46,735 nucleotides of DNA from Vallitaleaceae bacterium (GTDB taxonomy: Bacteria; Bacillota; Clostridia; Lachnospirales; Vallitaleaceae): the NCBI GenBank assembly GCA_029935405.1, contig JAOZKH010000004.1, positions 5,299 to 52,033 of the forward strand. The letters are read 5' to 3'. Shown here piece after piece: positions 1,346 to 12,438 of this stretch; within the stretch, counting starts at the first letter, position 1, and every line of letters starts with the position of its first letter. The position numbers and the translations under genes are program-made. Below the pieces are notes generated by a model that was not told the origin of the DNA, did no database searches, and saw nothing but the letters and a program-made list of their open reading frames with translations.

Positions 1346-1354
1346 TCAATTGTT

Positions 1355-1413
1355 GGTTAGTGTGTCAAAACTGAGTTTCTCTAATTCTAATATGTAGTTT
1401 CGATACCTTAACC
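1355..1413. repeat. Short (59 bp) MITE-like inverted-repeat element, divergent copy of the 12213-12329 element
   Basis: ggttagtgtgtcaaaactgagtttctctaattcta...agtttcgataccttaacc; both ends match the termini of the 12.2 kb element. Confidence 0.6.
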
Positions 1414-1784
1414 ATTGTTAGATATATAAAATTATAGCATATTTTCATATGATTAATAAGGAAAATATTAACAAAATACTTTTGGCACTCTACTATAGTT
1501 GGTTTAATATAATTTAATGGTGCGTAGTATCCGCATAAGCAATTCGACCTACTGTTTGACAAATAGATAGGGCTATGGTACTATAATCATGATTTGGTCA
1601 GTAGGACAAAAATATTTGCCACTGAAAATCCAAGAAGAAATTCTTGACGAAGAAACAAAAGAAGAGCTTGGGGAAGCTTATATATCAAAGCACCATGGCT
1701 AGAAATATGTCGTGGTGCTTTAATGTACCTTATGAAATGTGGCTTTACATAAAAATAGAAGTATGTTACTATTACACTAGTAAA

Positions 1785-12156: not shown

Positions 12157-12212
12157 AAAACAGTCAAAAAGTGCTATACTATTATTGATAATTACCGATA
12201 TATAAAATGATG

Positions 12213-12329
12213 GTTAAGGTGTCAAAACTAAGTATCTCTAATTCTACCACTATATGTAGTACTCGGTTGAAGACTCCAAGCATACATATAGTGGTAGAAA
12301 GTTCAACTATATAGTTTTGACACCTTAAC
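12213..12329. mobile_element. MITE-like palindromic element (117 bp), 18-bp perfect terminal inverted repeats plus 16-bp perfect inner stem
   Basis: GTTAAGGTGTCAAAACTA...TAGTTTTGACACCTTAAC; inner tctaccactatatgta / tacatatagtggtaga; flanked by direct ATGGTTAAGG (12210-12219 and 12332-12341). Confidence 0.65.
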
Positions 12330-12340
12330 TAATGGTTAAG

Positions 12341-12409
12341 GAAGTTTCGTAATTGTACATGAATATAACCAAATATGGTTAATTGTACATGAAGAGTATG
12401 AGAAACTTC
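12341..12409. repeat. Second palindromic/direct-repeat element
   Basis: GAAGTTTC (12341-12348) / GAAACTTC (12402-12409) enclosing two copies of TAATTGTACATGAA (12350-12363, 12380-12393). Confidence 0.55.
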
Positions 12410-12438
12410 ATAATGAATATAGGATATGGCGGTGTAAT

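Follow-up and report, generated by a model that had tools for sequence, protein, structure and literature searches.

The window, by which we mean the whole 46,735-nucleotide stretch of DNA that was analysed, carries two copies of a short palindromic element, a 119-bp copy in the leader of divIC and a 59-bp copy elsewhere (Table 1). In the long copy, the outer arms at 12213-12230 and 12312-12329 are complementary at 18 of 18 positions, so the palindrome with perfect 18-bp terminal inverted repeats (TIRs) that an earlier note had read from this DNA is real. Other copies add one base per side to the palindrome, which extends the element to 12212-12330. The ends of the family are GG...CC, and this copy terminates in CT. 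The perfect inner stem described in the note is also real but is one base longer than the 16 bp given there, with arms at 12242-12258 and 12283-12299 that are complementary at all 17 positions. The folding energy of the palindrome lies 10-12 SD under that of dinucleotide shuffles on both strands. The direct ATGGTTAAGG flanks to which the note had drawn attention are not a target duplication, because the left flank is part of the element, forming its end, and the right flank falls beyond it. The target duplication that the note proposed to look for is present around the long copy as AATGAT and AATGGT, which agree at five of six bases. Adjoining the right duplication, GGTTAAGG at 12334-12341 may be the leftover end of a second copy; adjacent or tandem copies with a spacing of approximately 120 bp are present elsewhere (L151, L167, L159, L194).

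Table 1. Coordinates in the window of the two element copies, their repeats and stems, and the flanking target duplications
Feature	Position	Strand	Remark
Full-length 119-bp MITE copy	12212..12330	+	sits in divIC leader; bounds set by comparing copies
Left terminal inverted repeat, 19 bp, GGTTAAGGTGTCAAAACTA	12212..12230	+	
Right terminal inverted repeat	12312..12330	-	differs from consensus only at its last base (T for C)
Inner stem left arm, 17 bp	12242..12258	+	complementarity and covariation
Inner stem right arm, 17 bp	12283..12299	+	complementarity and covariation
Left target duplication AATGAT	12206..12211		5/6 match to right one
Right target duplication AATGGT	12331..12336		5/6 match to left one
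59-bp internally deleted copy, same family	1355..1413	+	both ends shared with 119-bp copy
Left target duplication ATTGTT	1349..1354		exact
Right target duplication ATTGTT	1414..1419		exact

The divIC leader, which runs from an S4-domain gene to divIC, measures 285 bp with the element in the window's genome and 88-96 bp without it in three congeners, and a TGCTATACTAT stretch upstream is conserved. The 108 bp 3' of the element (12331-12438) are unique in the genome and contain two repeats, one inverted with arms of 8 bp (GAAGTTTC/GAAACTTC) and one direct of 14 bp (TAATTGTACATGAA); this segment lengthens the leader relative to the congeners, the element aside. The 59-bp sibling at 1355-1413 was rightly recognised in the note: it keeps both ends and is flanked by an exact ATTGTT duplication. 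The statement that it lacks the inner stem is correct for most of the stem, not for all of it, and the copy is an internal-deletion derivative. The gene neighbouring it was not found in the congeners' loci that were compared.

The element belongs to a large dispersed family. The window's genome (G000) is a draft of 2.92 Mb in 250 contigs, in which blast with the 119-bp element returned at least 40 copies at 85-100% identity, the short copies forming a separate class. The TIR core TTAAGGTGTCAAAAC occurs there at 195 sites with at most one mismatch, against none for the reversed control, and the 19-base end at 212 sites with at most two mismatches, which corresponds to about 100 elements. Four genomes of the genus Petrocella, which the NCBI taxonomy places in Vallitaleaceae, Lachnospirales, carry 84-161 ends each: G009, which is a single 3.52-Mb contig, HGW-Firmicutes-3 (G010), HGW-Firmicutes-2 (G011), and Petrocella sp. 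FN5 (G012). The three congeneric species have at most two relic ends apiece, and one relic TIR lies at the same place (position 1501) in two of these congeners (L093/L094 in G002 and G003), indicating that the genus already carried the family before the two diverged. The 19-base end is absent from the remaining genomes of the family, beyond the window's genus and Petrocella, and among 295 genomes sampled from the order, those outside both genera gave at most one chance-level match each. Exact-TIR matches in Shewanella and in a roe-deer MAG look like chance, and the only exact match in IMG/VR falls in a sequence that reads as coding. Among plasmids and phages the window copy had no match, and a Paraclostridium plasmid weakly matched a Petrocella copy over 51 bp. 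Two further TIR-bearing contigs are probably mis-binned: PGXL01000028.1 (L200), binned as HGW-Tenericutes-2, shares its assembly prefix with the HGW-Firmicutes-3 bin, and PHAB01000051.1 (L223), binned as HGW-Firmicutes-14, shares its prefix with the HGW-Firmicutes-2 bin. Six contigs of G000 (C190, C108, C112, C176, C145, C193) start or stop no farther than about 50 bp from the end of an element, and the palindromes may break the assembly.

The flanks of the copies record insertion. Duplications were read from the bases flanking GG...CC, and left and right flanks re-paired at random served as the control. Among 104 distinct elements, an exact 6-bp duplication was found in 29 (0.95 expected) and an exact 7-bp duplication in seven (0.3 expected). 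About a third of the copies thus retain an exact duplication, as expected of old insertions. The outermost bases of the element vary among copies. Only five of 212 elements lie inside an open reading frame of at least 70 amino acids, though 86% of the DNA is coding, so insertion is almost entirely intergenic. The genes around the elements show the background mix of tandem, divergent and convergent arrangements, and where a full-length copy lies between tandem genes neither orientation is preferred (30 vs 36). Unoccupied orthologous sites were found at divIC in three of three congeners and also between Petrocella species, where the occupied L232 and the unoccupied L239 align without gaps over 297 bp once the element and one duplication are omitted. 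The duplications, the unoccupied sites and the size variants support the dispersed non-autonomous family that the earlier note had suggested. The opposite outcome, in which there would be no other copies and both loci would be fixed in relatives, is contradicted by the roughly 100 copies and the empty divIC site.

The copies fall into size classes of 117-119, 83-86, 59-65 and 35-40 bp in a list of 227, some of whose entries are nested or overlapping pairs. Internal deletions with approximately 31 distinct junctions account for the short forms, and despite this variety almost no copies measure 66-82 or 87-115 bp. Microhomology at the junctions averages 3.1 and 3.7 bp, compared with 2.0 and 1.6 bp in random deletions of the same length. 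Three insertions common to different Petrocella species, with corresponding flanks, have the full 119 bp in one species but only 83, 85 or 35 bp in the other, showing that deletion of the hairpin can occur in place. Together, these data show that short forms can arise in place when part of the inner hairpin is deleted, in many cases between short direct repeats. Certain 37-bp forms (L073 17645-17681, L077 11233-11269) consist of the two ends only, joined head to head in a nearly perfect palindrome, and some such forms retain exact duplications.

The family preserves its double-hairpin shape as the sequence changes. Three lineages (G000, Petrocella and the congener relics L062/L092) have the 119-bp layout in common with a nearly constant position and length of the inner stem, whose sequence differs between them. 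Covariation was scored as a count of named base pairs; the RNAalifold consensus was set aside, since the position of the inner stem differs by one base from lineage to lineage. Across 42 sequences, 13 of 31 pairs have changed on both sides, with 63 doubly changed cells compared with 19 in shuffles and 4-17 with slid partners. Among 30 near-identical G000 copies, the inner stem shows nine double changes, all still paired (0.67 expected), and the equally palindromic TIR stem shows two (0.67 expected). In full-length insertions common to species, which amount to about five independent sites, inner-stem changes are six single and none double. Pairing kept in lineages that are still moving, rather than corrected in place, is weakly favoured. 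Some of these common insertions (L186/L195/L218, L103/L245, L162/L180) have diverged between species less than the flanking DNA has, in one case at 0 of 119 positions compared with 11 of 200; constraint might be the reason, or gene conversion among copies. In most copies the better fold is that of the minus strand, and the strand-specific wobble bias that a transcribed RNA would be expected to show is not significant (35 vs 22 changes). The idea of a mobile RNA-structure module, also raised in the earlier note, gains from the compensatory conservation of the hairpin and loses from the lack of a significant strand preference and of a gene-orientation bias. No terminator-like site was found at the element, and the best Rfam match over it scored 29.7 bits where the cut-off is 100, which places it in no family.

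The note had recommended a search for a transposase with matching TIRs; five genomes, including the single-contig G009, yielded none. In G009, all 84 TIR sites with at most two mismatches were surveyed with their surroundings: no autonomous element lies within 4.5 kb of any of them, and no transposase lies between two TIRs that are 600-4500 bp apart and have a duplication. The pairs at this distance enclose dnaA, a transporter or a chemoreceptor-like protein and are attributed to chance. The solo ends of the other carrying genomes (46 of 283) have no common interior except the MITE itself or overlapping or orthologous stretches. The family-level search covered PF01609 and PF01797. DDE_Tnp_1 (PF01609) transposases in genomes with the element lack matching ends and have unrelated surroundings, and no matching ends (at most three mismatches) lie near those Y1 (PF01797) transposases that are present.

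Four of the five MITE features tested were found, namely length, TIRs, target duplications, and dispersed copies with unoccupied sites; at 119 bp and less, the element is well under the approximately 500 bp of a MITE and too short for a transposase. We are confident that it is a non-autonomous MITE with a conserved hairpin, presumably moved in trans by a DDE-type transposase. We infer the DDE type from the target duplications and general knowledge, not from a gene. Such an enzyme, supplied in trans, would cut at the GG...CC ends, and the cut ends would be joined to staggered cuts in AT-rich targets. It may have been lost from the carrying genomes, may belong to an element with ends only weakly like those of the MITE, or may be hidden in a gap of the draft assemblies. 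The inner hairpin would matter to those lineages that keep moving, as suggested by arm changes that are compensated family-wide whereas common insertions in place carry uncompensated changes only. A more specific proposal is that cut-and-paste mobility depends on the internal hairpin as well as the ends, that selection on transposition preserves the hairpin through compensatory change, and that stalled insertions lose it by in-place deletion; we regard this as rather unlikely. A somewhat doubtful but serious possibility is that the inner stem is kept paired by arm-to-arm template switching (quasipalindrome correction) and not by selection, which would still make the element a MITE, with a hairpin that has no role. 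The frequency of double changes even between near-identical copies speaks for template switching, and so does the non-significant wobble bias, which is expected of a process on double-stranded DNA. The comparison of common insertions in place speaks against it, with small numbers, as does the scarcity of double changes in the equally palindromic TIR stem.

Two other readings differ on what the element is. The palindromic hairpin with frequent compensatory changes, the constant length and the extragenic location are as described for REPINs (PMC3116915), and the element could on this account be a hairpin unit that a RAYT, a Y1 tyrosine transposase, copies as single-stranded DNA. The carrying genomes G010 and G011, whose drafts are incomplete (G010 86%), gave no match to Y1 genes, and where such genes exist no end lies nearby. 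The clear 6-7 bp target duplications weigh further against copying by a RAYT, which we consider very improbable: Y1 transposases, which use the IS200 mechanism, are not known to make target duplications. Regulatory RNA or terminator structures that are fixed at conserved loci could be argued from the strong hairpins in gene leaders, the compensatory changes, and the low divergence of common full-length insertions relative to their flanks. Against them stand the missing divIC copy in congeners, the background gene arrangement without orientation bias, the non-significant wobble bias, and the lack of both a terminator-like site at the element and an Rfam family. We give this explanation almost no credence, and as the origin of the element it is already refuted.

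As a MITE, the element resembles prokaryotic examples reviewed previously (PMC10969869), such as QMITE1/2 in Coxiella and Chunjie in Geobacter, in being short, AT-rich and intergenic, with TIRs, flanking direct repeats, full-length and truncated variants, and stable predicted stem-loops. It differs from described prokaryotic MITEs in having an inner hairpin under compensatory change, a target duplication of 6-7 bp, no Rfam family, no known parent IS, and ends for which a literature search with the TIR string returned no paper. REPINs, which are mobilised by RAYTs, are palindromic hairpin units with compensatory changes, conserved length, extragenic location and high copy number (PMC3116915). 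The element resembles them in each of these respects, hairpin conservation included, and fails two of their defining features: it has target duplications, and it is accompanied by no consistent Y1 transposase, with no Y1 gene flanked by the element. By description, not by sequence, its build is also similar to that of repeats in different hosts. Among these, bcr1 of the Bacillus cereus group and the ERIC/Correia-type repeats are structured, intergenic and roughly 100-160 bp in length, and several of them carry TIRs and target duplications.

The family is a large and apparently unreported group of MITEs, with about 100 copies in the window's genome, in a little-studied family of Clostridia, and its insertion puts strong hairpins into leaders of ordinary genes, divIC among them. 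It also provides natural pairs of species that share an insertion, complete in one of them and without its hairpin in the other, and these make it testable how bacterial genomes delete palindromes and why short mobile elements retain hairpins. That the hairpin matters for mobility is a testable suggestion; hairpin-dependent mobility, if true, would amount to REPIN-like structural selection through a different transposition chemistry.
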